DNA from: Diadema setosum
Taxonomy: Eukaryota; Echinodermata; Echinoidea; Diadematoida; Diadematidae
Reading direction: 5' to 3'
Length of the DNA: 64,000 nucleotides
Assembly: GCA_033980235.1 (NCBI GenBank)
Contig: CM067072.1
Span: 13,776,371 to 13,840,370, forward strand
Below, in pieces: positions 16,598 to 62,980 of the stretch. Made by a program: the position numbers and the translations under genes. The notes below the pieces were generated by a model. It saw only the letters and a program-made list of their open reading frames with translations. It was not told the origin of the DNA and made no database searches. How positions within the stretch are numbered: position 1 is the first letter of the stretch; each line of letters begins with the position of its first letter.

Positions 16598-16646
16598 GTA
16601 AAATAATAGTATTAAAAAAAACAAGAGACATGGTATTCCTGGCTTC

Positions 16647-17965: not shown

Positions 17966-18034
17966 TGAAAGTGCACTGGCTCTCAGTCATGGAAATTTGA
18001 GGAATGATTTCGTGATTAATTTGTGTTCCGTCAG

Positions 18035-36600: not shown

Positions 36601-37710
36601 GAACACTGGATGGCCTCACACACAAGTTCACATACAGTTTTCCTTCATGCTTTGTCAGCAGACGCCGTGGACGAAGTTGGAGGTGAAACCCCTGCGATGG
36701 ATCAAACACTGACAAGAGAGAATATCCGCCTTGCCCACGAGGAAGACCCCCAGATCAAACCCATACTGAGGGTCAAGTTGCAAGGTAAATTCCCCAGTCG
36801 GAAGAGTCAGATGAACTTGAACCCTACATCACGTCGCCTTTTGCATGAGTGGAAGCAGTTACAGGTGGCCGAAGATGGCATCTTGTTCCGGAAAACCACC
36901 AGCTGACAGCAAATGTTGCTCCCTGAGTGCCACCATCAAGTTGCATTGAAGTATCGCCATGATGATATGGGCCATCAAGGCGCAGATAGTGTCCTATCCC
37001 TCTTGCGAGACAGATTTTACTGGCCACACATGCAGTGCAATGTTGAACATTACATCACACAACATGCTCATGCATCAAGGATAAGAAACCCACCAAGAAC
37101 ACAAGGGCACCTCTCATCCCCACTGTCACTTCACAACCCTTCGAGTTAGTTTCGCTAGATTTCCTGCATCTCAAGAAAAGCACTGGTGGGCATGAATACA
37201 TCTTGGTCATTGCTGACCATTACACCAGATTTGCCCAGGCATACTCGACATCTAACAAGAGCGGGAAAACAGCAGCCACCAAGTTCTTCAAGACATTCTT
37301 CCACAGGATTCTCACCCTTCTTCCTACTCTACGGCAGATCTCCCCGCCAACCTGTCGATCTTGCTTTTGGACTCCACACCATGTAGGACCAGCATGCCTC
37401 TCGAGATCACACAGAGTATGTGAAAAGGTGGCAACAGCAGATGAAAAAGGCACATGCCTTAGCATCAAAGAGAATGTCAACTGCAGCAGGACTCCACAAG
37501 CAGGGGTATGACAAGAAGGTGTACACTTACGTTCTCGTGCCAGGTGACAGTTTCTTGGTCAAAAATAGACACTGTCTACACCCTTGTATCTCAAAGGGAG
37601 AGATGCCAGTGTATGAGATCGCTCCAGAGAATGGAAAGGGATGGACGCGAATCCTCCACCGGAATCATCTCCGTCCCTGCGACTATCTCAAATCACCAGC
37701 TGTATAGGTC
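36601..37710 (+). pseudogene. Ty3/gypsy integrase region, deleted and frameshifted
   Basis: The linker (LTRENIRLAHEEDPQIKPIL) is followed by the integrase zinc-binding module, HDDMGHQGADSVLSLLRDRF then YWPHM. Its expected cysteine pair is replaced by histidine, alanine and serine residues near 37065. The core starts as [20 protein letters not shown] with the first catalytic aspartate. It then jumps to [20 protein letters not shown], so the middle of the core with the other acidic residues is missing. The C-terminal part (NRHCLHPCISKGEMPVYEIA, GWTRILHRNHLRPCDYL) is recognisable. Stops and shifts separate the pieces. Confidence 0.88.
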
Positions 37711-38502
37711 TTCCACATGCCTCACAGCCCAGCCACAAACTCAGTTCTAAACAAGTAACTCCCAGAAGAGACAGAACAACTCAACGGCCCTCGCCACAAG
37801 TGGACTCAGACTCTGACGACTCAGAGACTGAATATTACATGGAATTTGCGCGACGTCAGGGACCCATTGACCCCTAAAATGAGGATCGATAGTCAAATGA
37901 GGAGCAGCCAATCACAAATCCTGTTGATAATGAACCCCATTCATTAAATGACTGAGGTAGATGGTGCAAATGATGTTAATGGCCAGCAAGAAGGTGTGGT
38001 TCCACCCCAGGTGATCCATCCAGAAGATGAAGGTCACCCTCCAGAAACTGCTGTCCAAGATCAACCGCCTTCACAAAATGTCTCACCTTCAGTGGGTAGA
38101 AGGACGTCTAGCCGTGCCAGAAGGCCTCCCACGCTTCTGACATATGACCAATTGGGACAACCTTCATCAAATATGTTGCAATTAAACAATATGGCAGCCC
38201 ACACCCACAAATGGCTGTATACCCATTCATCTTATCAGCCCACTCAAAAATCTAATCAACCCGTACATCACCTCCAGCCGATCCACCAACCGCATGGGGA
38301 GACATCACAGCCGCCTCCTCTCCAATCCTCCAGTCTTCCTCCATACCTCTTTCCAAACCAGTACCCCACCCATTTTCAGCACCAAACTCTCCCCCAATTC
38401 ATTGTTAACCCATATACACCACCGATGACTCTGTTCCAGACTTGTGGCCTGAGTAAAACTCATCACTACCATCAAGGCCCAGGTGTTTACCAGCGTGACT
38501 GA
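37711..38502 (+). pseudogene. Ty3/gypsy polyprotein C-terminal tail
   Basis: A proline- and glutamine-rich plus-strand frame, open from 37948 to 38502, contains GRRTSSRARRPPTLLTYDQL. This resembles the basic 'R-R-S-x-R-x-R-x-P-P' tail found after the integrase of many gypsy elements. It follows the integrase remnant directly. No env-like frame is seen. A purine-rich stretch at about 38966-38985 could be the polypurine tract, but no LTR was recognised after it. Confidence 0.6.
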
Positions 38503-39064
38503 AGAGGATAGACCACACCAGGACTCTACTTCCCAACAATGACCCCGAGACAGAGGAAACACCATGGGGAATGCCAGAGGGAGAGAGGAAAATAACCCAC
38601 CATATAACTGTGACTGTTGAGTTCATAATGAAGATAGCTTTGCAGGGGAAGACAGAGAAGTGAAGAGCAAACCTATGCGTAATGTTTCCAGACAAGTGAA
38701 TCGGGATGTAAGATTATGTCAGAGAATACATTGTGAAAAGGAATTATGTTGCAATGACAAACACAAATTTGTGTCTCAAGATAATGTCCTGATTCCCTGC
38801 ACTGCTTTTATCATTTGAACTGATGTTTATCGAATTGTACAGAAATATAAAACCTGTTTTAATCGAAATCTTGTAGATTTAATGGCTTGCACTCAACTGG
38901 ACTTATGCACTCCAGGTTTGAGGCCATGCCAAAACGGTTCCAGTATTAAAAAGGAGTAAAACTGGAAGCGAAGGGGAGAGATTCCTGACTCTGATTAATG
39001 AAATACAGGTACTCCAGGAGGTACGATAGAAAATGTTGTTTGAAGTGAAGTAATCATCAAATTA

Positions 39065-39325
39065 GCATTCGAAGGAGATAGATTTTTATTTTGCATTTAA
39101 TATCATGGGTATCCTGATGTTGAGTGTCGTGGAAGACATTATTTTAGGAGTAGAAGAGTGAAGAATGTTGAGAGGAAAGAGTGACGTGGAAGCTAAAAGA
39201 CCTTTGCTACATTGGCACAGGGTTTACAGATAAAAGCCAACATCAAACTTCAAACACAAGAAACACCTTGAATACAAGAAAACAAGTTCTCATTGCTACG
39301 TAGTAAGTAGCATACAACTAGCCCA
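39065..39325 (-). other. Probable 3' UTR of the micro-exon gene
   Basis: The sequence follows the TAA of the last exon on the minus strand. An AATAAA polyadenylation signal (reverse complement of TTTATT) lies at 39085-39090, about 240 bases after the stop. No other gene is seen here. Confidence 0.5.
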
Positions 39326-39433
39326 TTATTTCTCATAGTATTTTTTGCGAAATTGCTGGTGTCTGCACTTGTCCATAAATTGCTTCTTAGTGACCCGGTC
39401 ATCTATCTTCAGACTCTTGTAAACCAGTGTCAT
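39326..39433 (-). CDS. Last exon of the micro-exon gene
   Basis: On the minus strand the acceptor CTTGTTTTCACTGCAG opens this exon in phase 0. It reads MTLVYKSLKIDDRVTKKQFM and ends RHQQFRKKYYEK followed by TAA at 39326-39328, giving 35 codons plus stop. The peptide is rich in lysine and arginine and looks helical. Together with the previous exon it resembles the short basic, possibly SANT/Myb-like tails at the C-terminus of recombinase-derived animal proteins, but that is an inference. The acceptor, phase and stop make the exon itself well supported. Confidence 0.75.
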   Translation of the reverse strand: MTLVYKSLKIDDRVTKKQFMDKCRHQQFRKKYYEK

Positions 39434-40947
39434 CTGCAGTGAAAACAAGAATATGCCACACTATTTAGTTGTTATAATAAAAATGCCATAAATAGAAAAT
39501 GTACCAAAATTGTACTCATGGAATTATCATTTAACTTAGCAATTATATAGGGCAATATTACAAAGCTTCACCCAATTTTCTTGGCAAATACCTACATCCT
39601 GTGCATGAGTCAACTTTGCATTTTGCAGTCAATCACAGCACAAATTTACTTGGGGCATCTATGTATGAAGCTCTGATGAGCCATTATATGTATACTGCTC
39701 ATGTGAGATATACATGTATATGTTTTTCTTCATTTAGCATCTTGTTGCTTCTTGAAGAACAATACCTTGTGGAATCATAAATTGCCACCATCTTAATTCT
39801 TGACTGTAGACCTACAATATCAATGGCAACTTTCAAATTTACTGGCAACACAAAATGGAACTAATTAACAGTTTATTTACAAAAGTGTATGTCATCAATA
39901 TATAATTCATAAAAACAATTCGAGTGAACATTTTGATTTCTATTTATCATCCCACTGACAATAACTTGAGATATTGAATGTGACATGCCCATACGGCGTC
40001 ATAAAGTATTTTCATTTGCAACACATCCAAATTATTGTGCATCATCAATGGCCAGGTTGGACGCTTGCAGGCAATGGTAAATTAGTTCTAATGAACTAGA
40101 GTTTCCTGTACTAGTTTTCATAACCGGTTTAGGCAAGCTGTTCTTTGATATAACAGATAATTTCCATAGACATCATTTTAATTATACTTAAGACTATTCT
40201 TCAAGTTATTAACAAGGAGGAACACAATCATTGCAGTTGTTAGGGAAGCTTTTAAAATGAATTATTATTTATAGCAAAATTCTGAATTGCTGTTTATTGC
40301 ATTACTTTCATACTAAGTCTATTAACTCTTTATGAAACCACTAGTGTGCCACATTCTGAGATGCCAATGCCATGCTTTAGGAAAACCTGTTTTTCAAATC
40401 TATGACACTTTTACAGATTTCTGTTACTAGCCTGGAGATGAAGAGAGTAAAGTTGTGGAGGAAATCATCTATTTTTGCTTTGATGTTAATTGTACGAAAA
40501 ATCTACAGTGGATGACTGTTTTCCTTTCAAATGACCAGTGGCTACATCATTGTACAGGCATGATTTTGCACTCAAAACAGTTGCTGACATTTAGAATTTC
40601 CCTCCAAATCTAGTAGGTCACAACGCTCAATAGTCAAACATCACATAAAATGCAAGATGTGACAGGAATTGAATCGCAAGAAACTTCTTCACTGAGCCGT
40701 GGCTTTTGGCGATTTATGGCTTAGTGTGGTCAGATTCGCACATTTGAGAAGAATTTGCGAAGTTGCACACTGTTGACTGAGTTGGGTGTGCGAAAATTGT
40801 ACATAAAGACTTACGTAGCTTTCCATAACAGAATGCGATGTGCAAACACAGTTTCTAGCATTACGATCTTGTTCATTAAAAAAGAATGAAGAAATGACAC
40901 TGAAAGTGTTAAAATCATTTTGCCATGAGAGAAAAGTGCATCCTTAC
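39434..40947 (-). other. Intron of the micro-exon gene
   Basis: Intron between the exons at 40948-41046 and 39326-39433. It contains a family C MITE at 40322-40814. No further exon was recognised. Confidence 0.6.
40322..40814. mobile_element. MITE, family C
   Basis: The left end TTAACTCTTTATGAAACC and nearby GTGTGCCACA pair with the right end GTACATAAAGACTTA. Internal words match the copies at 29367-29921 and 46853-47369 (TTTTGCTTTGAT, CTTTCAAATG, CTCAAAACAG). It lies in an intron of the micro-exon gene. Confidence 0.65.
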
Positions 40948-41046
40948 CAGCTTCTGGTAGCTCTGCGGATGCTCCTTGGTTTTGTTGTGTGTACAAATGT
41001 TGATTACTCTGCTGAGCAATTTATGTTCTTCTTCAGGAGTGAGGAG
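40948..41046 (-). CDS. Penultimate exon of the micro-exon gene
   Basis: The acceptor TTTTCTTCCCTCAAACAATGCAG and donor AAGCTG|GTAAGG bound a 99-nt, phase-0 exon on the minus strand. It encodes LLTPEEEHKLLSRVINICTH and ends NKTKEHPQSYQKL. The L-T-P-E-E-E-x-x-L-L start suggests a helical DNA-binding-like module (SANT/Myb-type helix), continued in the last exon with K-x-x-x-R-V-T-K-K-x-F. I do not recognise a named family. Borders and phase are good. Confidence 0.78.
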
Positions 41047-41123
41047 CTGCATTGTTTGAGGGAAGAAAATGAAAATTGGGCATTCAATTAAAAAATCAAT
41101 AGAACCAAATGCACACAGTGATA

Positions 41124-41297
41124 CAGTACACTCCTGTCATAACAGACATGGTTAAAACGAAATTCTGGTTACAACGAAATAAACATTTAGACTGCAACAT
41201 TATCCTATGTTTTTTACTGTTCATTTGTTCGGTCACAATGAAATTTCTATATAACGAAACAAAATTGTTGAGAATTTGTTATAATGGGAGTCCACAG
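41124..41297. mobile_element. Pogo-like MITE with TA target
   Basis: TA flanks both ends. The left CAGTACACTCCTGTCATAAC pairs with the right TTGTTATAATGGGAGTCCACAG. This is the same family as 31459-31654. It lies upstream (minus-strand sense) of the exon at 40948-41046. Confidence 0.75.
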
Positions 41298-41359
41298 TAC
41301 ATCATGTATATTACTGTATGCAGTCACTTCAGAAAGCAGATGCCATATGATACAGGTTA

Positions 41360-42160
41360 TTAACCCTATTCTCACCGGAGGGGGGCCATTTTGCCCCCCC
41401 CCCTCGACGTTTCGCGTGATTATTCCGCAACGCATGATGCTTTTGCCACAACATTTTACGACTTTTTTCTTTCAAGTATTGTGCAACTTTTGAGACCAAA
41501 TTTGTTGCTCTCGGGCATACCGTTTTGAAGCCCCGCCCCTTTGAAAAAAATTTGTCGACCCAAAAATTGCTCAAGAACGTGATTTTATGTACGAATCCAA
41601 TGTAAATTGCGTTTTTGCAATTAATTCATATAAAATCAAATATTTTTACTTTCAATGGCTGATAATGATTAATTTCAGCCTGATTAAGCTTTTAAAAAGT
41701 TTTATGCGACAAATATTGATAAAAAAACCAACAGAAACAAAAAGTAAAAAAACAATGAAATACATGAGAAATTCAATAAACAATAAAATACATAAGAAAT
41801 AATTATGAAGCCGAATTTTTGCTTCAGTATCATTGTTGAGGATATTGAAAAGAATATGTTCACCAAAAATTAGAAGTCTTTGAGCTTTATTTTTTTATTT
41901 ATAGGCAAAAAAAAATATAATATTTTGCATAAATTAGCATAAATTAATAATATAAAATACATAAATTAAAATGTGAAAAATCTAACTATACGGTCTTGTA
42001 GATTATATTGGCCTCTTCCTCAGTGCAAATTTTCGCAAGGATCGCGCGATCCATGACTGAGATCTGAAGGGGATGGGGGGGGGGGGGGGGCCAAAAAGCC
42101 CCCCCCCCCCCCCCCCCGTGCTTTCAAGTCCCTCAAGAAACTCGGTGGGATTAGGGTTAA
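41360..42160. mobile_element. TTAA-flanked element, family D (CCCTAWTCYCACCG)
   Basis: The left end TTAACCCTATTCTCACCGG is mirrored by the right end CTCGGTGGGATTAGGGTTAA. C-runs and G-runs lie just inside both ends. The 800-bp interior is AT-rich and has no recognisable transposase. Confidence 0.8.
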
Positions 42161-43182
42161 ACGTTTGTAATTTCCTGAGTATTCTACTTTGTGATTTTAC
42201 CACTCCTAGTGTGATCCCAGCTGTGTCTGCGCTGTCTAGCTACGATTAGCATATTCCTAGGCATTTTGCGCCTTTCCTGAGTGATTCCAAGGACACTCCT
42301 ACAAAGACTTCCCTGGAGTGTCAAAAGGGCTTTTTACTTTCACAGATTTCTACTTTGTCCCGTACCAACGGTGAGTGTAAAAAGCTGCAAAGATTGGTAC
42401 GGGACTGACGATAGTCTTGGGTCAGCGAAAGTACGGGGTTAAGAAAGTGTAAAAAGGGCTTTAGGACATGAAGAACTTTTTTTTTTATTCTACCTATTTT
42501 TAATCTATCTTTTATTTTTTGCATTTGACGGAGTAAGAATGCCAAAATGATAGAATTTGCTTCAGCAACAGTAGACACCAGCCCTTACACAAAAACAAAT
42601 GCAAAATAACTGTTTGTTCCTGACATGCCATATGACAGTGTGAGGAAAGAGTCATGAAGCATTATTCTATCAAGGTATAGAATTGATCAATATTCAAACT
42701 AGAGAAGCACTTTGAGAGCGCAGACCTCCGCCAAGGATGCAAATCATTTTCACCACTGATCTTGTTCTTCCATGGAGATATCAGTGATTTCCACCCATAC
42801 GTACTTTAGGCCTGCGGATTGAGGCTGAATTTGGGGGTCAACTGGCAACTATCGTATAACAAACAAATTTTGTAATTTTTATCTGGATCTCTCTATTATA
42901 CTGACGCAATCTCGCCGTGATTTTTTTAAAAATAACTATGGGAGGAAAGGGGGATTCCCAACTCCTTGAGAACTCCTATACAAACACACATGAATTACAT
43001 ATTACTTCCAACATGATTAACATACATTACATCAAATTTCCTTCCAAATTGCTTACCTTCAGACATTTTAACATCCCCAAACATCCCCAAATGTAACAAT
43101 GAAAAGGTTGCAGTATACACACATGTGGTACTACAATGGGCTACATCAGTACATGTGTATGTATATGCACATGTATAAAGCA

Positions 43183-43259
43183 TTGAGTCTCCCGTATCCG
43201 GCCAAATCCCTTATCCGGATGAGCCCCGGTCCCGACTTGTCCGGATACGAGAGGTTCAA
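43183..43259. mobile_element. Very short pogo-like MITE (77 bp)
   Basis: The left end TTGAGTCTCCCGTATCCGG is mirrored by the right end CCGGATACGAGAGGTTCAA. The whole element is nearly palindromic. Similar TTGARYCTCxCGTATCCGG sequences are typical of pogo/Tigger derivatives. Confidence 0.75.
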
Positions 43260-43271
43260 CTCTATATGCAT

Positions 43272-43695
43272 GGCTCGACACTAACTTTTTTGTTTGGTGG
43301 CCCGATGGGGCCACCAAAATCCTAAATTTCAAATTTTTGGTGGCCCGAGAGAAAAATTTGGTGTCCCGAAAAAAACACAATAAAAAACATTAAAAGTCTT
43401 TTTTTTTCATGAGTCAAATATTTAAGATTTATGATAGTAAGAATTAGAAGTTGGACATATCTACTCATAAATAAACTTCAGCAAACTTGCAATACTCTTA
43501 GGCATTCATTCAGTCCTTTTCATCCATCCTTTGAACAAATTTAACTGATTTCCGGCGCAAAAAGTTACAAATTTATTGACATAATTTTCAAAAAATTTTG
43601 GTGGCCTGAGGCGGGCCACCAAATTTGCCCTTTTTAAAAATTTGGTGGCCCGACTTTCATTTTTGGTGGCCTCAGGCCACCGTTAGTGTCGAGCC
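43272..43695. mobile_element. Foldback element with GGGCTCGACACTAAC ends
   Basis: The left end GGCTCGACACTAAC and right end GTTAGTGTCGAGCC are inverted. Inside both ends the words GGTGGCCCGA and GGGCCACC repeat many times, giving several possible stems. It is non-coding. Confidence 0.8.
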
Positions 43696-43759
43696 CTGGT
43701 ATATGTCTTAAGAAACTTACCAGTAAAATTTACCCAGAATTTCTGCGTCAATACATGCC

Positions 43760-43800
43760 TCAAACCCCCCCCCCCCCAAAAAAAAAAAAAAAAAAAAAAA
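43760..43800. repeat. Poly-C then poly-A tract
   Basis: A C-run of 13 bases is followed by an A-run of about 22. Confidence 0.9.
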
Positions 43801-44551
43801 TGAATGGGAATTTTAGGATATCTCAAGTGTTCATAATACAACTGACCTTACTCATGAGATAAGTTGCCAGTGTATGTACATGTATTTCTTATTTCATGCC
43901 TTTTCTTCAAGCAAGATTGGGCCCAATTGCGACCTCTTTTTCAAAAAATCTGAGCCCAAATTAGGTCATTTCTATGGCAACTCTATACTGAAAACAAGTG
44001 ATTTTTCTCAAACAAAAAATGCAACACCCTCTCAACGATAAACACCATTTTAGATTTAAATAAGTATGTAAATTTAATTGCCTAGAGTTGAGACCTAACC
44101 TGTGAGAGACCATAGCTACCATGGTTACTCTCAAACTTGCCTGTAGCCATTATAGCACAGCTGTCCAGTTATCACAATTTTCATTTTTAGTGGTGTATTA
44201 TGTATACAAATTATTCCATCTTAGTAGCTGGATTTTTTGTTGTTTTTTGTTTTGCATTTGGCACAATCATAAGACAAGCTGACATTTTGTTCAAGCCAAT
44301 TAGGCATAGAACATAGATTAAGTCAATTTCTCATAAGATGAGACCCTCCTCCACCTCAGCCTCTACTCCCAATAAAAATGATTAGTTCATGCCTTTTCCT
44401 TTCTTGCAGTCCTGTAGGATGTTTCACCAAACTTCTCATTGGTTTCAGTTTCACTTCACTGGTTTCAGTCTCGCTATATCACTTTTCTAATTGGTATGTT
44501 TCAGTCACGAGGACTTGCTAACTAACTTTTCACGCCAAGCTGGGGTCGGTG

Positions 44552-44779
44552 TAGTGTAGTTTCTAGACGTTTTTATTTCGTCTTCATTTCTCTGAGTTAA
44601 AGGAAGCCGAGTGAGAGCGCATACCCAGTGATTGCGACGCCAGAATCGTTTTTTTGTCGCAATCACTGGGTATGCGCCCTCACTCGGCTGACGGCTGAGC
44701 GCCATACAGCGGGCTTCAATACACAAGCTGCAACTCAGAGAAATAAAGATGATATAAAAACGACTAGAAATTAAGACTA
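44552..44779. mobile_element. Foldback element with 9-bp target duplication
   Basis: GGGTCGGTG occurs directly at 44543-44551 and 44780-44788, immediately outside matching inverted ends (TAGTGTAGTTTCTAGACG at the left; right-end complement TAGTCTTAATTTCTAGTCG). An inner, nearly perfect stem pairs GCCGAGTGAGAGCGCATACC with the complement of GGTATGCGCCCTCACTCGGC around a short T-rich loop. A 9-bp target duplication is typical of Mutator-like elements, so this is probably a MULE-derived MITE. Confidence 0.8.
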
Positions 44780-45108
44780 GGGTCGGTGACGCTTGTAGCT
44801 ATTGGAGCACTGAAAATGACAAACGTATCACAGTTTTTACATTTATTTCATGAAGAATTCATCAAAACTGCATAAAACTATAAATGTACACGTTGCTAGA
44901 GATGTGAGCAATACAGTGGGATTCATTGTAAGTAGACAAAAGAACTCTGTTGAATCGTATGGAAAATGCGACTCGCGTGAGACAACTGGAAGCGAACAAA
45001 GGGCCGAGGAATCCCACAGTGCACCTGTGACAGAGCTCTTCAGCGTGCGCAGGAGTTTTTCACATTATTGGTGATAGCAAGAATTGATTTTTATGTTTGC
45101 ATGATTAC

Positions 45109-45168
45109 CTTTCCAGCAGCCACATTGGGTTGTTCATTTGGGAGCCATTCTGGGTCATCCAGTCTCTC
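45109..45168 (-). CDS. Exon of the micro-exon gene, 60 nt
   Basis: On the minus strand an acceptor (TGTTCTTAATAAAG) and a donor (GGAAAG|GTAATC) bound a 60-nt, phase-0 exon encoding ERLDDPEWLPNEQPNVAAGK. It lies directly downstream of the micro-exon array in transcript order and uses the same GTAAT-type donor. The acidic, proline-containing peptide looks like a flexible linker. No family was recognised. Confidence 0.6.
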
Positions 45169-46571
45169 CTTTATTAAGAACAATAAATGACAAGGTGCCT
45201 CAGTTATTCCATGTGAATCTAAGGCAATATTTAAACATGTTCATAATGAATAGATGGTATCATCTACAAAATTTCTATAGGATGTTATTGAAAACTTCTC
45301 TCATGTATGTGATTGTCTTTGAATGCCCTAGATAAGTTAACATTAACAGGGAAAGTTAATGTAACAAATAAAGTGAATATCAACAATCCACAAAAATCTG
45401 CAGAACTGTTTTCAATGAATTCCTCACAATAGTTAAATATAGAAATCAATGAAATGCATGGAGAAAATAGAGTTGATACATTTGTTACATTTACTTCATA
45501 CAATTACATTGCAGGGGAATCTTTGCAAGTTTCATTTTGGTTATTGGTATCATTATTATCATTTTATTCTGCATTTCAGACATTGCCTAGGTACATGTGT
45601 AAACACAACACACATTTGATTCATCATAACCAAAATTAATACCCGTACATGATCTGAATAAAAGAAAGCAAATATGATTCATATAACATAAGTTGCAATG
45701 ACTGGTCAGGACTCACATGCATGAACTCATTAACAATGAAATAAAAAGATTGTCGATATGATAAATGTGTGTACTCAAACATATGACTTCTCTTGGTAAA
45801 TCACCACCATGGGGAAAATTCATTGAAAAGCTATGCCACAGACTGAGTGTACATTGTGATCTTTTTCATTACCATTTACTTATAAGGGACTTCTTATACA
45901 TAGTGAAATAACTTTTAAAAACTTGGCCGATCATCACAATTTTGTGTGTGGTTTTACAGTTTTTACCTTGCGGGGGGTGCTCCGAGAGTTTGTCGATACC
46001 TTTGAATACAATGATGAAATAAAAGCACTCAGAAAACACAGGTCTCGACCGTGCCATGCAGCTCATTTTCACATAAACACACATGGTGAAATTAGCCCAA
46101 TTTTGCAATATATACAGTAAGCCTCTTGTTCACATCATCAGTGTCAAACTGCATGGCACCTCATCCAAGTATAGGGTTTGCTCTTTATGAAAAATTCAAA
46201 TATTGACATTGTAAGTTCATCAAACCTAAAAGGAGAAAAAAGCATGTACAAAGTCATAAATATTCCATGGTTCACTACCAAAAACTAACCATCTACTCCT
46301 TGTGTCATTATTGACTTTTAATGCTCGTCAGCACCATGAGCATCATTTATAAGAGGCAACTATTTTCTATCATTATGATGTTGTAAGGAAAATTATCTAA
46401 GATTGACTGGGTGGAAATTTAGGGCATGTCGCCTGCTTGAGGTTTTATCATGCTTGATCACAATATTGCAATGTCATACACATTTGGAGTAATGCTAGTG
46501 CCTTAATTCTATATTACAAAGCAGTTAAACATCCACATAATTCACAATTGCTTTACAATACAAAGCATTAC
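45169..46571 (-). other. Intron of the micro-exon gene
   Basis: AT-rich intron between the 60-nt exon and the last micro-exon of the array (46572-46601). No further exon was recognised. Confidence 0.5.
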
Positions 46572-46601
46572 CTTGGGAGGGGCAGCAATGGTCGATGATG
46601 G
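46572..46601 (-). CDS. Micro-exon, copy 12 in transcript order
   Basis: A 30-nt block lies between ...CCACAG and GTAATG on the minus strand and encodes PSSTIAAPPK in phase 0. This is the copy closest to the downstream coding exons. Of the acceptor context only the CATTTTTCGACCACAG variant remains. Confidence 0.65.
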
Positions 46602-46852
46602 CTGTGGTCGAAAAATGGATGAGATCTAGTATACTGTACAGTCATATTTGTATTAAAATTACTGTAGTCTTACACATTAGGAGTAATACAGGTGTCTAAT
46701 TTACTTTACATGTCTTCAAGTGTTCTTCACAAACTCAATGTACTTATTATAGTTATTAAAATCATTCTCCGAATAAGTTGAACTCATGATTGCACTGTTG
46801 AAAAATAATGTCCACGAGAATAAGCAAACATTTACAGCAGTAGCAGAATCCT

Positions 46853-47369
46853 TTAACTCTTTATGTGCCACGTTCACACGTCCGACTCGGTAGACGGCGT
46901 GCCAACTTCGCATATTCTGCTCAAACTCACTAATCCGCCTAATCCGATCGATAAATCACTGAATGCCGTGGTGCAATGAAAGCGTTTCTCACACTTCTGT
47001 TCCTCTCACATATAGCTTGCATTTCATGTAGTGATTGACTATCAACGGGTATCTCTACTGGATTTGAGGGTAATTTCTAAGTTCTGTCATTGTTTTGTGT
47101 GCACAAGTCATGCCTTTGCAGTAATGTAACTACTGGTCATGCAAAAGAAAAACAATTATAGATTTGTCATGGAATGATACATCAAAGCAAAACTTGGCAT
47201 TTTCTCTACAACTTTACTCACTATTTGCCCCAGCTCAACAGAAATCTAAAGAAGTTACAAAGACTTGAAAAAAAGAATAATGTTTTCTCAAAGCTTGAAA
47301 GCGTTAGTGTCTCAGGATATTGTGGCACAAAGGGGGTTTCCACCATTAAATTGGCACATGAAGAGTTAA
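46853..47369. mobile_element. TTAA-flanked MITE, family C, inside the array
   Basis: The left end TTAACTCTTTATGTGCCACG is mirrored by the right end TTGGCACATGAAGAGTTAA, with TTAA at both borders. The 517-bp element is inserted between micro-exons 12 and 11 and accounts for their wider spacing. It encodes nothing. Confidence 0.8.
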
Positions 47370-47401
47370 AAGTGTAAATGACTTTTAAGTGAGGAGTTTA
47401 C

Positions 47402-47431
47402 CTTGGGATGGGCAACAATGGTCGATGATGG
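47402..47431 (-). CDS. Micro-exon, copy 11, variant peptide
   Basis: This is the most diverged copy, with the same 30-nt length and splice borders (donor AAG|GTAAAC). Two substitutions make the peptide PSSTIVAHPK. The frame and both splice dinucleotides are intact. Confidence 0.6.
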
Positions 47432-48044
47432 CTGTGGTCAACAAAATGGAGGAGATGTACCGTACAGTCAAATTTGTATTACTGTAGTCTTACACACTTG
47501 GAGTAATACAGGTGTCTCATGTTCTCTACATGTCTTCAATCATTCTTGACTACTTCATTGTACTTATTGCAGTTACTTAAGTCATTCTCTGATTAAGTTT
47601 GATATATGAATGCTCTGTTAAAACATAATGTCCATAAGAAAATGCAAACATTTACAGCAGCAGCAGAATTCTTTCCAATTCAATGGAGTTAAACAGTGAG
47701 CAATTCCTACAGATTTTTGAAGAAATGACAAAAAGTCCTTTCACATCTCCTTTTGAAAGCAGTCACACGATCATAAAAAAGTAAAAATGTAAAAACACAA
47801 TATCTTATTCATCTCCTGGTCTAATATTGCGATATAATTTAAGAAAAGATTTCTTCTTGAACCAATTGAATAAAAAAAACATACAAGGTTGAACATTAGA
47901 GTGTGCGTCCCATTGTACGTTCAATGATGCGAGATCACCAGGTTAGTGGCATGCACTTGTACTACATAGTTTTAGTTGCTTATTTACACATTACACAGAA
48001 AACATCCAAATAATTCACAATTGCTTTTCAACATAAAACATTAC

Positions 48045-48074
48045 CTTGGGAGGGGCAGCAATGCTCGATGATAG
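48045..48074 (-). CDS. Micro-exon, copy 10, LSSSIAAPPK variant
   Basis: A 30-nt block with the acceptor TTTTGTTGACCACAG and donor AAG|GTAATG. Two base changes relative to the consensus give LSSSIAAPPK. The same variant occurs at 50568 and 53088, which tracks the block duplications. Confidence 0.65.
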
Positions 48075-48555
48075 CTGTGGTCAACAAAATGGATGAGATA
48101 TACAGTCATATTTGTATAACTAGTCTCGCACACTTGGAGTATTACAAACATTTACAGCAGTAGCAGAAGCCTTTATAAATGTAATTGATTGTAAGTGAAG
48201 AATTCTCCACTTTTTCAAAGAAATGAAGAGATGTTTATCACACCTCTTCCCTATCACAACACGATCGTACAAAGAAGAGTAGACAGCAGAAGAATAAAAT
48301 TATAAAAACACAATATCTTATCTGTCTCCTGATTCAAAATTCTACATATTGTAGGAAAAGGAATTGTTCTTGAAAAAAGAAACAAGAAACATGCAATATT
48401 GAAAAGGTTGAAAATTAAAGTGTGTGACCCATAATATGTTTTAAATTGCGAGATACAAGGATTAAGTGGCACACACTTCAAGTAGTTTTAGTGGCTATCT
48501 ACACATTACAAAGCAAACATCAAAATAAGAATTGTTCTAAAACATAAAGCATTAC

Positions 48556-48585
48556 CTTGGGAGGGGCAGCAATGGTCGATGATGG
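48556..48585 (-). CDS. Micro-exon, copy 9
   Basis: Consensus 30-nt block encoding PSSTIAAPPK, acceptor CATTTTGTCGACCACAG, donor AAG|GTAATG. It is the first of four micro-exons in the left copy of the 2520-bp tandem duplication. Confidence 0.68.
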
Positions 48586-49052
48586 CTGTGGTCGACAAAA
48601 TGGATGAGATATACAGTCATATTTGTATAACTAGTCTCGCACACTTGGAGTATTACAAACATTTACAGCAGTAGCAGAAGCCTTAAATGTAATTGATTGT
48701 AAGTGAAGAATTCTCCACTTTTTCAAAGAAATGAAGAGACGTTTATCACACCTCTTCCCTATCACAACACAATCGTACATAGAAGAATAGACAGCAGAAG
48801 AATAAAATTATAAAAACACAATATCTTATCTGTCTCCTGATTCAAAATTCTACATATTGTAGGAAAAGGAATTGTTCTTGAAAAAAGAAACAAGAAACAT
48901 GAAATATTGAAAAGGTTGAAAATTAAAGTGTGTGACCCATAATATGTTTTAAGTTGCGAGATCACAGACTTCAAGTAATTTTAGTGGCTATTTACACATT
49001 ACAAAGCAAACATTAAAATAATTAAGAATTGTTCTAAAACACAAAGCATTAC

Positions 49053-49082
49053 CTTGGGAGGGGCAGCAATGGTCGATGATGG
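49053..49082 (-). CDS. Micro-exon, copy 8
   Basis: Consensus 30-nt block encoding PSSTIAAPPK, with the same splice borders. A family B hairpin MITE (49233-49597) lies in the adjoining intron. Confidence 0.68.
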
Positions 49083-49232
49083 CTGTGGTCGACAAAATGG
49101 ATGAGATATACTGTACAGTCATATTTGTATTAAAGTTACTGCAGTCTTACACATTGCGAGTAATACAGGTGTCTACTTTTCTTCACATGCCTTCAAGCAT
49201 TCTCTACATATTCACTGTACTTACTTCACTTA

Positions 49233-49597
49233 TTAAAGGGGAAGGCTAGTAACTGATCAGTGGGAATCAGTGGAAATGCGGGGAGATGATTGTTCCAATC
49301 CTTATGGGATTCATCCAAGAGTACATTATATATCTATTGTTGTGTGAAAATGATTTGCTTCAGAATGGTCTCATATTCGAGTAATGTGCAGTTTAATGCT
49401 TCCAGGTTAGCGTCCCTGGTCAGTGACGGAGCATTAATCTGCACATTACTTGAATATGAGACCGTTCTGAAGCAAATCATTTTCACACAACAATAGATAT
49501 ACAATGAACTCTTGAATGAATCCCATAAGGATTGGAACAATCATCTCCCAGCATTTCCACTGATTCCCACTGATCAGTTACTAGCCTTCCCCTTTAA
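49233..49597. mobile_element. TTAA-flanked hairpin MITE, family B
   Basis: TTAA borders both ends. The whole 365-bp element folds back: TTAAAGGGGAAGGCTAGTAA and CTGATCAGTGGGAATCAGTGG are mirrored at the right end. The stem continues through TTGTTCCAATCC, TTGTGTGAAAATGATTTGCT and CTCATATTCGAGTAATGTGC to a centre at about 49405-49430. Because it is palindromic, both strands show the same short open frame; it is not a gene. Confidence 0.92.
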
Positions 49598-49911
49598 AGT
49601 CATTCTATGATTAAGTTAAAATCATGAGTGCTCTGTTAAAACAATAATGTCCATGAGAATATGCAAACATTTACAGCAGTAGCAGATATTGTAAGTGAAG
49701 AATTTCTTCATTTTTTCAACGAAAAGGAAAAGAAGTTTATCACACCTCTTCTCTATCACAATCACACGACCATCAGAAGAGTTGATGGCAGAAGAAAAAA
49801 AAAATTATTAAGGGTTAGTGGCACACATTTCAATTAGTTTTAGTGGCTATTTACACATTACAAAGCAAACATCAAAATAATCAAGAATTGTTCTACAACA
49901 AAAAGCATTAC

Positions 49912-49941
49912 CTTGGGAGGTGCAGCAATGGTCGATGATGG
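49912..49941 (-). CDS. Micro-exon, copy 7
   Basis: Encodes PSSTIAAPPK with one synonymous change (GCA for GCC). Acceptor ...TTCTTGACCACAG, donor AAG|GTAATG. The synonymous change leaves the peptide unchanged. Confidence 0.68.
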
Positions 49942-50567
49942 CTGTGGTCAAGAAATTGGATGAGATATACTATATACAGCCATGTTTGTATTACTGTACT
50001 CGTAAACACATTAGGCATAATACAGGTGTCTCATTTACTTTACATGTCTTCAAGCATTCTTCACATATTCAATGTACTTATTTTACTGTACTTATTTCTG
50101 TAATTAAGTTTAAATCATGAATGCTCTTTTAAAACATAATGTCCAACAGTATATGCAAACTTTTAAAGCAGCGCCAGAATCTCTCAAATGTAATGGAGTT
50201 ATAAGTGAAGAGTTTCTATACTTTTCCAAAGAAATGAAAGCAAAACAAACCTCCTGCTGATTTTAATCACATGTTTATACAAAAAGAAAATTCTTCTAGA
50301 AATTGACAGGAACAAAAAAAAAAATATCATCCATCTTCTGATTTCAAATTGTGATATAATGTTGGAAAATGATTGTTCTTGAAAAGAATATAAAAAAAAA
50401 TGCAAAATTGATTAGGTTGCAAATTAGAATACACGCCAATGGCATGTTTTATGATGTGAGATCACATGGTTAGTGGCAGAAAGTTTGAGTAGTTTTGGTG
50501 GCTTATTTACACATTACACAGAAAACATCCAAATAATTCACAATTGCTTTTTAACACAAAACATTAC

Positions 50568-50597
50568 CTTGGGAGGGGCAGCAATGCTCGATGATAG
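50568..50597 (-). CDS. Micro-exon, copy 6, LSSSIAAPPK variant
   Basis: The LSSSIAAPPK variant with intact splice borders. It marks the junction region between the two copies of the 2520-bp block. Confidence 0.65.
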
Positions 50598-51075
50598 CTG
50601 TGGTCAACAAAATGGATGAGATATACAGTCATATTTGTATAACTAGTCTCGCACACTTGGAGTATTACAAACATTTACAGCAGTAGCAGAAGCCTTAAAT
50701 GTAATTGATTGTAAGTGAAGAATTCTCCACTTTTTCAAAGAAATGAAGAGATGTTTATCACACCTCTTCCCTATCACAACACGATCGTACAAAGAAGAGT
50801 AGACAGCAGAAGAATAAAATTATAAAAACACAATATCTTATCTGTCTCCTGATTCAAAATTCTACATATTGTAGGAAAAGGAATTGTTCTTGAAAAAAGA
50901 AACAAGAAACATGCAATATTGAAAAGGTTGAAAATTAAAGTGTGTGACCCATAATATGTTTTAAATTGCGAGATACAAGGATTAAGTGGCACACACTTCA
51001 AGTAGTTTTAGTGGCTATCTACACATTACAAAGCAAACATCAAAATAAGAATTGTTCTAAAACATAAAGCATTAC

Positions 51076-51105
51076 CTTGGGAGGGGCAGCAATGGTCGAT
51101 GATGG
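51076..51105 (-). CDS. Micro-exon, copy 5
   Basis: Identical to the micro-exon at 48556-48585, exactly 2520 bases to its right, with identical flanking introns. Confidence 0.68.
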
Positions 51106-51572
51106 CTGTGGTCGACAAAATGGATGAGATATACAGTCATATTTGTATAACTAGTCTCGCACACTTGGAGTATTACAAACATTTACAGCAGTAGCAGAAG
51201 CCTTAAATGTAATTGATTGTAAGTGAAGAATTCTCCACTTTTTCAAAGAAATGAAGAGACGTTTATCACACCTCTTCCCTATCACAACACAATCGTACAT
51301 AGAAGAATAGACAGCAGAAGAATAAAATTATAAAAACACAATATCTTATCTGTCTCCTGATTCAAAATTCTACATATTGTAGGAAAAGGAATTGTTCTTG
51401 AAAAAAGAAACAAGAAACATGAAATATTGAAAAGGTTGAAAATTAAAGTGTGTGACCCATAATATGTTTTAAGTTGCGAGATCACAGACTTCAAGTAATT
51501 TTAGTGGCTATTTACACATTACAAAGCAAACATTAAAATAATTAAGAATTGTTCTAAAACACAAAGCATTAC

Positions 51573-51602
51573 CTTGGGAGGGGCAGCAATGGTCGATGAT
51601 GG
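51573..51602 (-). CDS. Micro-exon, copy 4
   Basis: Identical to the copy at 49053-49082, offset by 2520 bases, and encodes PSSTIAAPPK. Confidence 0.68.
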
Positions 51603-51752
51603 CTGTGGTCGACAAAATGGATGAGATATACTGTACAGTCATATTTGTATTAAAGTTACTGCAGTCTTACACATTGCGAGTAATACAGGTGTCTACTTTT
51701 CTTCACATGCCTTCAAGCATTCTCTACATATTCACTGTACTTACTTCACTTA

Positions 51753-52117
51753 TTAAAGGGGAAGGCTAGTAACTGATCAGTGGGAATCAGTGGAAATGCG
51801 GGGAGATGATTGTTCCAATCCTTATGGGATTCATCCAAGAGTACATTATATATCTATTGTTGTGTGAAAATGATTTGCTTCAGAATGGTCTCATATTCGA
51901 GTAATGTGCAGTTTAATGCTTCCAGGTTAGCGTCCCTGGTCAGTGACGGAGCATTAATCTGCACATTACTTGAATATGAGACCGTTCTGAAGCAAATCAT
52001 TTTCACACAACAATAGATATACAATGAACTCTTGAATGAATCCCATAAGGATTGGAACAATCATCTCCCAGCATTTCCACTGATTCCCACTGATCAGTTA
52101 CTAGCCTTCCCCTTTAA
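51753..52117. mobile_element. Family B hairpin MITE, duplicate copy
   Basis: Exact copy of the element at 49233-49597, carried along in the 2520-bp duplication; not an independent insertion. Confidence 0.92.
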
Positions 52118-52431
52118 AGTCATTCTATGATTAAGTTAAAATCATGAGTGCTCTGTTAAAACAATAATGTCCATGAGAATATGCAAACATTTACAGCAGT
52201 AGCAGATATTGTAAGTGAAGAATTTCTTCATTTTTTCAACGAAAAGGAAAAGAAGTTTATCACACCTCTTCTCTATCACAATCACACGACCATCAGAAGA
52301 GTTGATGGCAGAAGAAAAAAAAAATTATTAAGGGTTAGTGGCACACATTTCAATTAGTTTTAGTGGCTATTTACACATTACAAAGCAAACATCAAAATAA
52401 TCAAGAATTGTTCTACAACAAAAAGCATTAC

Positions 52432-52461
52432 CTTGGGAGGTGCAGCAATGGTCGATGATGG
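52432..52461 (-). CDS. Micro-exon, copy 3
   Basis: Identical to the copy at 49912-49941, including its synonymous change, offset by 2520 bases. Confidence 0.68.
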
Positions 52462-53087
52462 CTGTGGTCAAGAAATTGGATGAGATATACTATATACAGC
52501 CATGTTTGTATTACTGTACTCGTAAACACATTAGGCATAATACAGGTGTCTCATTTACTTTACATGTCTTCAAGCATTCTTCACATATTCAATGTACTTA
52601 TTTTACTGTACTTATTTCTGTAATTAAGTTTAAATCATGAATGCTCTTTTAAAACATAATGTCCAACAGTATATGCAAACTTTTAAAGCAGCGCCAGAAT
52701 CTCTCAAATGTAATGGAGTTATAAGTGAAGAGTTTCTATACTTTTCCAAAGAAATGAAAGCAAAACAAACCTCCTGCTGATTTTAATCACATGTTTATAC
52801 AAAAAGAAAATTCTTCTAGAAATTGACAGGAACAAAAAAAAAAATATCATCCATCTTCTGATTTCAAATTGTGATATAATGTTGGAAAATGATTGTTCTT
52901 GAAAAGAATATAAAAAAAAATGCAAAATTGATTAGGTTGCAAATTAGAATACACGCCAATGGCATGTTTTATGATGTGAGATCACATGGTTAGTGGCAGA
53001 AAGTTTGAGTAGTTTTGGTGGCTTATTTACACATTACACAGAAAACATCCAAATAATTCACAATTGCTTTTTAACACAAAACATTAC

Positions 53088-53117
53088 CTTGGGAGGGGCA
53101 GCAATGCTCGATGATAG
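53088..53117 (-). CDS. Micro-exon, copy 2, LSSSIAAPPK variant
   Basis: Identical to the copy at 50568-50597, offset by 2520 bases, with intact splice borders. Confidence 0.65.
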
Positions 53118-53584
53118 CTGTGGTCAACAAAATGGATGAGATATACAGTCATATTTGTATAACTAGTCTCGCACACTTGGAGTATTACAAACATTTACAG
53201 CAGTAGCAGAAGCCTTAAATGTAATTGATTGTAAGTGAAGAATTCTCCACTTTTTCAAAGAAATGAAGAGACGTTTATCACACCTCTTCCCTATCACAAC
53301 ACAATCGTACATAGAAGAATAGACAGCAGAAGAATAAAATTATAAAAACAAAATATCTTATCTGTCTCCTGATTCAAAATTCTACATATTGTAGGAAAAG
53401 GAATTGTTCTTGAAAAAAGAAACAAGAAACATGCAGTATTGAAAAGGTTGAAAATTAAAGTGTGTGACCCATAATATGTTTTAAGTTGCGAGATCACAGA
53501 CTTCAAGTAGTTTTAGTGGCTATTTACACATTACAAAGCAAACATTAAAATAAGTAAGAATTGTTCTAAAACACAAAGCATTAC

Positions 53585-53614
53585 CTTGGGAGGGGCAGCA
53601 ATGGTTGATGATGG
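53585..53614 (-). CDS. Micro-exon, copy 1 (first in transcript order)
   Basis: A 30-nt block encoding PSSTIAAPPK with one synonymous change (TCA for TCG). The acceptor CATTTTGTCGACCACAG and donor AAG|GTAATG are intact. A partial unit without a micro-exon follows to about 54030. Confidence 0.65.
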
Positions 53615-54149
53615 CTGTGGTCGACAAAATGGATGAGATATACTGTACAGTCATATTTGTAAATCATATTTGTAATACTGCAGTCTTACACATTAAGAGT
53701 AATACAGGTGTTTAATTTTCTTCACATGCCTTCAAACATTATCTTCACATATTCACTGCTCTTATTTCACGTATTAAAGTAATTATGAATGGTCTGTTAA
53801 AACATAATGTCCATGAGAATATATGCAAACTTTTAAAGGAATAGCAGAATCCTTCTAAATTCAGTTGCAGTTTCTACACTTTTTCAAACAAATAAAATAA
53901 GCCTTTCACACCCTTTTGATATCAATCACACGATCATACAAAGTAATGTATCAATACAGGTGTCTAATTTTTTTCTTCATGTCTTCAAGCATTATTGACA
54001 AATTCACCGAAAAAAAAAAAACTTATTTCATTTACTAATCTGAAGTGCTGTAAAGATTGTAAGATTCACAAAACATTAACTGCATCGACATTTCAAGAAC
54101 TTATAATTTAGATAATTGCCCTTGTAAAATGTTCCTCCTTGATTTGCAA

Positions 54150-54437
54150 ATCAATTCTCAGTTTTTGTCAGTTTTGTGTGCAGTAGTCATACCTCTATAA
54201 CAATGTAGCTACTTGTTATATGAAAGAAAGAAAAGAAAGCATTCATTTGTCATACAATCCACATTACACCAAAGCTCGGCATTTACTCACACTTTGACCT
54301 TTAAATGTCCAGGGTAACAAAAATCTTATAAGGATTACAGGCATTTGCAACAAAGAATCTTTTCCAAAAGCATGCATATTTTGTTGTCTCAGAATAATGT
54401 GGCAAACAGGAGGTTCCCATGGTACATAAAGACTTAA
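54150..54437. mobile_element. Family C MITE fragment
   Basis: The right end GTACATAAAGACTTAA and internal words (TTTTGTGTGCAGTAGTCAT, AAAGCTCGGCATTTACTC) match the element at 46853-47369. The left end is not clear. Confidence 0.55.
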
Positions 54438-54924
54438 ACTTAACTACAAATGGTAATAGTTCGATATTGTATAAATGAGGGCAAGTTACTCACCTAAATT
54501 GAATAAAGTTTTTTATTACAGAAATAGAGCATCGGTAGTAAAACTGTACAAGTTAAAGTCAGACTTTAGTAGTTCATAAAACAAAACAAAAAACACACAT
54601 GTTATTATATTACTATAAGAGTGATTTGAATTAAAATAAAAAAAAATAATCATCAAAGACATGCAAAGACAAGAAATTAAAAAAAAAATGATTCACACCA
54701 ACTGCAAAAGGGGAGTCTTATCTTTATCAATCACTTCTGTGCTATGAGTCAAATGTACACAAATGAAAAAAGTATCCTATGGACATGTAATTAATGTTGC
54801 ATAAAAATGGTTGAGATGTTCTATTTAACCTTTCAGGGGAAAAAGACATAAACATAGACTTGTATCTGTTAAGAAGCTGGTTTTATCAGTTGTTTGCCTT
54901 CGTCTGTGCCCAATCAAGAGGAAG

Positions 54925-56199: not shown

Positions 56200-56560
56200 T
56201 TAAAGGGGATGGCTAGTAACTGATCAGTGGGAATCAGTGGGAATGCTGCATGGAGGATAATTGTTCCAATCCTTGTGGGATTCATTTAAGAGTACATTAT
56301 GTATCTATCGTTGTGTGCAAAGTATTTGCTTCAGAATGGTCTCATATTCAAGTAATGTGCGGTTTAATGTTTCCAGGTTAGCGTGCCTGGTCAGTGACGG
56401 GGCATTAATCTGCACATTACTTGAATATGAGACCGTTCTGAAGCAAATAATTTTCACACAACTGTAGATATATAATGTACTCTTGAATGAATCCCACAAG
56501 GATTGGAACAATCATCCCTCAGCATTCACACTGATCGTTTACAAGCCATCCCCGTGAACA
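56200..56560. mobile_element. Family B hairpin MITE, diverged copy
   Basis: The left end TTAAAGGGGATGGCTAGTAA and the full internal hairpin match the element at 49233-49597. The right end (TTACAAGCCATCCCCGTGAA) has lost its TTAA. This is an independent, older insertion. Confidence 0.85.
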
Positions 56561-60950: not shown

Positions 60951-60954
60951 GACT

Positions 60955-61660
60955 TACTCCTCTTTTCTCCCACAACCTGTCTCCGAGTCTGTCGATGCTG
61001 ATATTTTATGACTGTTTTCTGCCAAGGTAGCAAATTTATCTGTCACTTTCAGCTTCTTGCCACTGACTGTGATGGTTGGCTCTGCGTATGGAATTGAAAA
61101 AGCTAGCTGATGCATCACTTCAGTCTTCTTTATGTTTATCATCAGACCAAAGTTATCACAGGTGTTGGAAAATGGGTCAATGATTCCTTCTAGATCAGAC
61201 TTCGTATTAGCCTGCAGGGCACAGCTATCAGCACAGAGAAATTCACAGGCGATATTCTCCTGAACCTTCAATTTTGTCTGCAGTCTCTGTAGGTTGATAA
61301 GCTTTCCTTCAGTTCTGAATTTGAAATTGACTCTGATGTCACCTTCGTGAAAAGCATGGCTGAGAGCATCGATTCTGAAAAGGGATGGGGCGAGGACGCA
61401 GCCTTGCTTTATGCTATTTGTGACAGGAAGAGCTACGAGCGTTCACCGTTATCCTGCATTCTAGCTTGCATGCCGACTGGGAAATGTATGACCAGTGAGA
61501 TGAACTTGGTAGGGCTGTCAAACTTGACCATGATCTTCCAGAGACCTTTCTTCCTCTGCAAGTGTCTCCATGTAGACTCGCTTCTTTCTCTGTATTTCCT
61601 GGTATCACCTTGTCTTCTACAAATAGAGATCTCATTGCCGCAAGTATGAGCTAGTAATAA
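60955..61660 (-). pseudogene. LINE reverse transcriptase fragment, catalytic site lost
   Basis: The minus strand shows, in order, L-W-K-I-M-V-K-F-D, then TNSIKQGCVLAPSLFRIDAL (palm motif with Q-G-C-V-L-A-P). Next come EFLCADSCALQANTKSDLEG, where the expected Y-A-D-D is C-A-D-S, and CDNFGLMINIKKTEVMHQLA, then EPTITVSGKKLKVTDKFATL. The layout is that of a widespread animal non-LTR element. The change of the second catalytic aspartate to serine and a frame change near 61440 show it is dead. N-terminal endonuclease and C-terminal parts are absent. Confidence 0.9.
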
Positions 61661-62827: not shown

Positions 62828-62980
62828 CTCCTCCCTCCACAAATTTTCTATGAATTCGGAGCAGCTAAAGTTCACGCTGCCACCTTGCAACGCGTTGTAA
62901 TAACGCCCTTGCGTCCTATGACTGTGCTGCATGAAATGCGCAAGATGCTCCGCATCTGCTGGTGGCAATTGCTGTCTGGC
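62828..62980 (-). CDS. Exon with tyrosine-recombinase-like C-terminal motif
   Basis: On the minus strand the acceptor AATTCTATTAACTTCATAG and donor GAGGAG|GTAATG bound a 153-nt, phase-0 exon. It encodes ARQQLPPADAEHLAHFMQHS, HRTQGRYYNALQGGSVNFSC and SEFIENLWREE. The L-A-x-F-M-x-H-S-x-x-T-x-x-x-Y-Y pattern resembles the end of tyrosine recombinases, where a histidine is followed about nine residues later by the catalytic tyrosine. Several animal gene families derived from Crypton-type or related recombinases keep this stretch. The earlier catalytic arginines would lie upstream, beyond the window or in unrecognised exons. It shares phase, strand and donor type with the micro-exons, so it is placed in the same gene. 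That link is an inference. Confidence 0.65.

Follow-up and report, generated by a model that had tools for sequence, protein, structure and literature searches.

The sea urchin Diadema setosum carries, in a 64,000-nucleotide (nt) stretch of contig CM067072.1 (assembly GCA_033980235.1, positions 13,776,371 to 13,840,370 of the forward strand; hereafter the window), twelve minus-strand blocks of 30 nt that are probably spliced as phase-0 micro-exons. In the protein they would place a linker of PSSTIAAPPK repeats after a predicted zinc-finger/tyrosine-recombinase-like region and ahead of a short C-terminal tail. If the blocks are spliced as predicted, the array provides a clean natural case in which linker length is the copy number of one tiny exon. 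Elsewhere in this genome there is a sister array of another length.

Twelve in-frame blocks between phase-0 exons

An earlier note on this DNA described twelve minus-strand blocks of 30 nt with splice dinucleotides and a common frame, lying between phase-0 exons at 62828-62980 and 45109-45168, and these claims have held: all 12 blocks sit at the low ends that its author gave, and both flanking exons are in phase 0 with AG/GT borders. The peptides that it listed are also those encoded, PSSTIAAPPK eight times, LSSSIAAPPK three times and PSSTIVAHPK once. Its description of the borders requires one amendment. The donor side reads GTAAT in 11 blocks and GTAAA in one (47402), as reported, but CCACAG directly precedes every block, including the CTATCATC copies, which had been credited with a mere equivalent AG. 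Each of the 12 blocks is thus 30 nt long, in phase 0 and placed between phase-0 exons, as is characteristic of symmetric tandem exons, and retention of any of the 11 introns between units leads to a stop after 9 to 17 codons. On these grounds we infer that the blocks are exons.

Numbered from the most 5′ copy on the minus strand, micro-exon 1 (53585..53614) encodes PSSTIAAPPK with TCA in place of TCG. It is followed by four units that fall within an exact 2,520-bp repeat, namely micro-exon 2 (53088..53117; LSSSIAAPPK, unit type 3), micro-exon 3 (52432..52461; PSSTIAAPPK with GCA, type 6), micro-exon 4 (51573..51602; PSSTIAAPPK, type 5) and micro-exon 5 (51076..51105; PSSTIAAPPK, type 4). The same four types then recur as micro-exon 6 (50568..50597; LSSSIAAPPK, type 3), micro-exon 7 (49912..49941; PSSTIAAPPK with GCA for GCC, type 6), micro-exon 8 (49053..49082; PSSTIAAPPK, type 5) and micro-exon 9 (48556..48585; PSSTIAAPPK, type 4). 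The array closes with micro-exon 10 (48045..48074; LSSSIAAPPK, type 3), micro-exon 11 (47402..47431; PSSTIVAHPK, donor GTAAAC, type 2) and, most 3′, micro-exon 12 (46572..46601; PSSTIAAPPK, type 1).

No further copy was found on either strand of the window at a threshold of at least 22 matches in 30, or at least 18 with AG and GT. Across the genome (885,718,524 bases in 96 contigs), a 34-nt pattern allowed up to two mismatches has 19 matches, all on the minus strand, 12 on the contig that holds the window (C14) and seven on contig C15, whereas the reversed pattern has none on either strand. A chance origin of the blocks is ruled out by this difference, and a simple dispersed repeat by their confinement, at up to two mismatches, to just two loci.

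Conservation of the exon and its acceptor side

The 12 units of C14 and the seven of C15 were aligned with 250 nt on each side, and counts were made on one unit per type, the six types being represented by 46572, 47402, 48045, 48556, 49053 and 49912. Among these six, 5 of the 30 exon columns are variable, compared with 22 of 30 at positions +7..+36 beyond the exon (p = 2e-5) and 20 of 29 at −61..−90 before it (p = 6e-5); the contrast with −31..−60, where 11 of 24 columns vary, is weak (p = 0.03). None of the 19 units has a gap in the 30 exon columns. Gapped columns among the six types number 14 of 54 at −60..−1 and 19 of 60 at +1..+60, and unit 46572 has a single-base gap approximately ten bases 5′ of the exon. 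Conservation begins approximately 60 nt 5′ of the acceptor and ceases a few bases beyond the donor. The conserved block therefore takes in the exon with both splice sites and some of the upstream 60 nt, in which the branch site and pyrimidine tract are expected to lie, and a spliced micro-exon would be expected to look like this. Its acceptor-side portion, which covers approximately 60 nt upstream of each micro-exon, is exemplified by 49083..49144 on the minus strand, with ATCTCATCCATTTTGTCGACCACAG.

The host gene and its relatives

The array lies in a predicted minus-strand gene that would extend from an end at 39.3 kb to at least 83.9 kb, past the window; the view was extended 40 kb rightwards (L009, L010), and coordinates above 64 kb continue the window numbering. 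Upstream of the array, all on the minus strand, the model has candidate C2H2-type zinc-finger exons near 83738-83858 (CVLCNESTNRMMLHLRRKH) and near 81358-81529 (CPFCPTSVQRLDDHFVRKH), exon-like pieces at 76853-77024 and about 71763-71992, an exon of the recombinase-like region at 66414-66665 (VKDHKTSW..RNLRKTVSTK) and the 153-nt exon at 62828-62980, which encodes 51 amino acids (ARQQLPPADAEHLAHFMQHSHRTQGRYYNALQ..LWREE) with an FMQHS..YY motif. Downstream, on the same strand, come the 60-nt exon at 45109..45168 (ERLDDPEWLPNEQPNVAAGK), a 99-nt phase-0 exon at 40948..41046 (LLTPEEEHKLLSRVINICTHNKTKEHPQSYQKL) and the last coding exon with its stop at 39326..39433 (MTLVYKSLKIDDRVTKKQFMDKCRHQQFRKKYYEK). 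Exon phases are compatible at the joins that can be read by eye. A tentative exon at approximately 69661-69740 was rejected because its phase clashes with that of its upstream neighbour. At 82360-82456 of the continued sequence (minus strand), a zinc-finger-like fragment (CVLCHEETNRM; expectation value (E) 1.6e-5) adjoins a short, stop-containing stretch that resembles VKDHKT (E 0.25); this is perhaps a decayed duplicate of exons of the host gene.

The predicted tyrosine-recombinase-like label rests on a weak match to Phage_int_SAM_4, the sole recombinase match in Pfam (E = 1.4e-4; 22.7 bits, below the 27-bit cut-off), and on a reading of motifs, a Lys in a hairpin, LRK, HS and YY, which we take to be those of a tyrosine recombinase. 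A Pfam zinc-finger model matched at E = 0.003, also below cut-off. R78, H103, Y111 and Y112 are invariant in all four aligned family members, and the His position of HxxR is occupied by Arg in C14, Trp in the C5 copy and Gln in the C2 copy; some of the catalytic residues R-H-R-(H/W)-Y may correspond to these positions. No Pfam model matched the catalytic part in any of the four family members, and neither DUF3504 (scans with E up to 1) nor, in scans of the host gene pieces, titin or immunoglobulin (Ig) models gave a match. When a preliminary 389-amino-acid spliced model (seven exon pieces and three micro-exon forms, with the zinc-finger and missing exons left out) was used as query, none of 3,143 candidate protein homologues reached E <= 0.001. 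The PDB held no match by sequence, and the family profile gave two insignificant ones there (E 0.59 and 0.88); Rfam gave none for the window. Every protein search made has left this zinc-finger/recombinase-like host gene unnamed.

Relatives are nonetheless present within the same genome. In protein searches that scored the best candidates only, the 62828-62980 exon has eight matches from 11 scored candidates: C14 itself, two on C5 (86% and 84%), one each on C8 (73%), C21 (46%) and C2 (44%), and two on C12 (49% and 45%). The tail exon at 40948-41046, searched in the same way with five candidates scored, matches C14 and C15 only. C5 carries the pair of recombinase-like exons as a tandem duplication, at 6553327 and 6554723 (L021, L022), in which one copy has an internal stop (one TAG, in the 84% match); the C8 copy and one of the two on C12 are interrupted by stops in the exon next to this one. 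Over 135 codons of exons 66414-66665 and 62828-62980, C14 and C5 have diverged at 60.8 of 89.7 synonymous sites and at 31.2 of 315.3 nonsynonymous sites, which gives a ratio of nonsynonymous to synonymous rates (dN/dS) of 0.06. The codon-position pattern is that of protein-coding sequence, and by this measure the two recombinase-like exons are under coding constraint. The introns beside them differ at approximately 13-17% of ungapped sites (19/145, 30/229, 13/78 and 9/71), and the compared sequences contain 15 CpG in C14 and nine in C5.

Micro-exon-like blocks were sought near these paralogues at a threshold of at least 19 matches in 30, or 16 with AG and GT. None was found in approximately 18 kb downstream of the C5 copy, in 20 kb on C8 or in six 3-kb loci (L021, L023-L027), and the best match to the conserved block in the C5 and C8 downstream DNA has E 0.033. 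Within the stretches searched, therefore, the array and tail seem to be private to the window locus and its duplicate on C15.

Changes in unit number

In the assembled array, 48176-50751 is identical to 50696-53271, an unbroken identity of 2,576 bp at a period of 2,520 bp. The higher-order repeat (48176..50751) comprises four micro-exon units, so that units 48556-50568 and 51076-53088 both fall in the exact period. The twelve units of the earlier note are accordingly all present, but four are exact copies and only eight are distinct; the repeat would be either a very recent duplication or an assembly error.

The second locus, C15:8737218-8758001, is a segmental duplicate of window positions 36993-54856 together with continued positions 89095-92780, without the intervening 34 kb. 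Divergence between the two copies is 0.87%, or 127 mismatches over 14,532 aligned columns. This figure is drawn from four collinear matches to 36993-54856; a fifth match, which overlaps these, and the one at 89-93 kb did not enter the count. The C14 array has 12 units and the C15 array seven, and one of the latter, B31403, fuses the upstream side of one type with the downstream side of another, making exchange between units evident from the alignment. Five pieces of the recombinase region (Ea, Eb, the two catalytic exons and the tentative piece at 69.7 kb) were compared with the 70 kb of C15 examined. None of them matched, so this copy probably represents only part of the gene. The tail exons on C15 carry three changes in 267 nt (two nonsynonymous, one synonymous), and the acceptor of the 99-nt exon there is altered from CAG to AAG.

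Weighing the alternatives

Several results count against the view that the blocks are micro-exons of a constrained gene. The 30 columns immediately upstream of the exon (−1..−30) are statistically indistinguishable from the exon itself in variability (9/30 versus 5/30 variable, p = 0.36), so that the constraint may act on something other than a coding exon, and the contrast with +7..+36 weakens (3/30 versus 13/30, p = 0.007) once unit 47402, an outlier whose donor side has diverged more than any other, is left out. By the contrasts with +7..+36 and −61..−90, the array survives the second refuting condition of the earlier note, that the 30 nt would be no less diverged than the introns; the difference is weak against −31..−60 and not discernible at −1..−30. 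Synonymous changes between copies, to which the same note had also pointed, do exist, but they number two against four nonsynonymous ones (9 and 21 sites, respectively), as would be anticipated without selection, and on this comparison the conservation signal is one of exon plus acceptor region and not of selection on the peptide. The seven unit pairs shared by C14 and C15 show no differences in 210 exon bases, 12 in 1,741 downstream bases and 115 in 1,704 upstream bases, the last figure being inflated by the fused C15 unit; however, with approximately 1.8 exon differences expected at 0.87%, zero in 210 is not significant and the comparison is powerless. In the host gene, silent sites (68%) are far more diverged between C14 and C5 than the adjoining introns (L028), so that the magnitude of dN/dS is of doubtful reliability. 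Finally, the gene model is incomplete: exons sought between 71763 and 66665 were not found, at least one being missing, and neither the exon with the first catalytic Arg nor the first exon was located.

A rival reading is that the units are an unspliced intronic tandem repeat of approximately 500-860 bp, with borders that resemble splice sites by accident and a conservation that stems from recent duplication or gene conversion. The exact repeat, the absence of selection on the peptide, the exchange between units seen in B31403 and the persistence of a C15 array without recombinase exons in the 70 kb examined would all be in keeping with such a repeat. What it does not readily accommodate is that conservation among six diverged types is bounded approximately 60 nt 5′ of the acceptor and a few bases past the donor, that all 19 units keep AG/GT and an ungapped length of 30 nt, and that the units keep the reading frame of the phase-0 exons on either side, in a gene under constraint. 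We consider it quite unlikely.

It is less easy to choose between splicing that skips units and splicing that does not. The micro-exons may be real and always all included, giving a fixed linker of 120 residues whose length changes by evolution and not by splicing, and we would put the chances of this only a little short of even. The acceptors of the twelve micro-exons have pyrimidines at 11-12 of 16 positions, within the range of nine other exons (7-15 of 16), 11 of the 12 donors share the context AAG/GTAATG, and the sequence bears no sign of regulation apart from the conserved upstream block. Exons of 30 nt are, however, generally harder to define, and the partly conserved acceptor-side block of approximately 60 nt in every unit could represent additional splicing control. 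The number of units may itself be inflated, four of the twelve being an assembly duplication of a true locus of eight. Zero differences over 2,576 bp at an offset of 2,520 would be surprising given that C14 and C15 differ by 0.87%, but a very young tandem duplication would look the same and the C15 array shows that unit number changes; such an artefact is a genuine possibility, if a somewhat unlikely one.

A source for the unit was sought in the neighbouring exon at 62828-62980, a broken duplicate of which might have yielded a new acceptor (CACAG) from its 'HFMQHSH' coding stretch. The acceptor score was promising at first, since the internal site CATCTTGCGCATTTCATGCAGCACAG reached 20/32 against the unit acceptors, as high as only four of 10,419 AG sites, itself included, and on the donor side the score of unit 49053 was attained in just 4 of 500 shuffles. 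This was not upheld by the remaining shuffles, of which 239/500 and 94/500 reached the score for two other units, or by the donor-side background, in which the likeness ranks 8th of 837 GTAA sites outside the array and falls within the background of the 436 GTAAT sites, among which the array copies are counted. On the acceptor side, the corresponding exon in the paralogues scores only 15-17. Derivation from this exon is very improbable.

How the array might operate

If the twelve blocks are micro-exons, each spliced block would add ten residues, to a maximum linker of 120. Because each unit consists of whole codons with symmetric phase, unequal exchange between units could alter the length of the linker in ten-residue steps without a frameshift. 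The linker would probably be flexible and extended, since the units are rich in Pro, Ser and Ala, and would hold the tail at a variable distance from the core. The part of this scheme of which we are least sure is that cells skip subsets of units to produce several lengths; as the pyrimidine content of the acceptors is like that of other exons, it is just as likely that all units, or most of them, are included.

A bolder proposal is that the recombinase-like gene uses a fast-evolving array of nearly identical 30-nt cassette exons as a molecular ruler, in which unequal exchange sets the maximum, splicing picks the number and the spacing of a C-terminal module from the recombinase-like region is tuned in ten-residue steps. 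This would amount to an exon-level minisatellite that is unable to break frame, and we offer it as a speculation that is rather more likely to be wrong than right. If spliced as predicted, the array opens the questions of how tiny exons are recognised twelve times running, whether a cell chooses their number and how an array can grow without breaking its gene. A further point of interest is the host gene, which is zinc-finger/recombinase-like and under constraint.

Other elements around the array

A 280-nt repeat occurs at 49285-49564, 51805-52084 and 56256-56535, with a similar reading frame on both strands (LFQSLWDS..), and is likely to be a palindromic mobile element; it is found in the intron that separates two of the unit types, with one further copy beyond the array. 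Remains of a Gypsy-like retroelement lie at 36382-37149 on the plus strand (weak RVT_1, E 6e-4; Integrase_H2C2, E 2.5e-10), and the C15 duplicate starts within their second piece. Reverse transcriptase fragments are present on the minus strand at 28286-28657 (RVT_1, E 5e-11) and 60954-61442 (RVT_1, E 1.5e-5, below cut-off). Plus-strand receptor-like fragments are found in the window at approximately 11949-12200, 16377-16601 and 17937-18350, and in the continued sequence at 95217-95450 and 100710-100979. They resemble class C (GABA-B-like) receptors; in Pfam the first matched ANF_receptor (E 0.0099) and the third 7tm_3 (E 0.0034), both below cut-off, and the second had no match. Two similar plus-strand stretches at 421-789 and 1092-1427 have open reading frames ending ..FVNYTFYYLFVFVEAWLS.

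Comparison with known systems

Arrays of short exons that grow by duplication have precedents. The PEVK exon array of vertebrate titin grew by tandem duplication, in part of whole multi-exon blocks, as in the human PEVK-C triplication (PMC6469411). The likeness extends to a long run of short exons, a stretch containing Pro and Lys, and block duplication comparable to the 2,520-bp four-unit block described here. The array in D. setosum differs in that a single 30-nt unit is repeated almost unchanged, and in that its gene is recombinase-like and no muscle spring. Rather than lying between Ig segments of titin, it is placed in a gene that is zinc-finger/recombinase-like by our reading and by weak Pfam matches.

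Schistosomes provide a second parallel, and tandemly repeated 81-base exons of S. mansoni were reportedly described by Davis in 1988. The micro-exon genes (MEGs) of these parasites have exons of 6-81 bp, mostly multiples of three, with long introns and alternative splicing, as summarised in PMC10526429. They share with the present array very short in-frame exons between long introns. However, their products are secreted with a signal peptide, whereas here one near-identical unit is set amid ordinary exons of a zinc-finger/recombinase-like gene. Nor is most of the coding sequence in micro-exons: these contribute 360 nt, and the nine longer exons, each of 60 to 252 nt, approximately 1,370 nt.

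The host gene itself invites comparison with domesticated Crypton-derived DUF3504 genes, which it resembles in being an intron-containing gene with a tyrosine-recombinase-like region, and an origin from a Crypton-like element is possible. According to PMC3212892, all such domesticated genes have lost the catalytic Tyr and the second Arg; here Arg (in LRK), His and YY are retained at those places by our reading, and no DUF3504 or phage-integrase catalytic match was obtained from Pfam. Mutually exclusive tandem exons (PMC9741552) likewise consist of copies produced by tandem duplication within one gene, but they substitute for each other, while the units here are symmetric and in principle additive.

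The earlier note knew of no description of this array, and no paper on it, or on near-identical 30-nt exon arrays in such a gene, was found in the open-licence literature as judged by title. Short symmetric exons arranged in arrays are, however, already familiar, and what is new is the repetition of near-identical 30-nt units within a recombinase-like gene.

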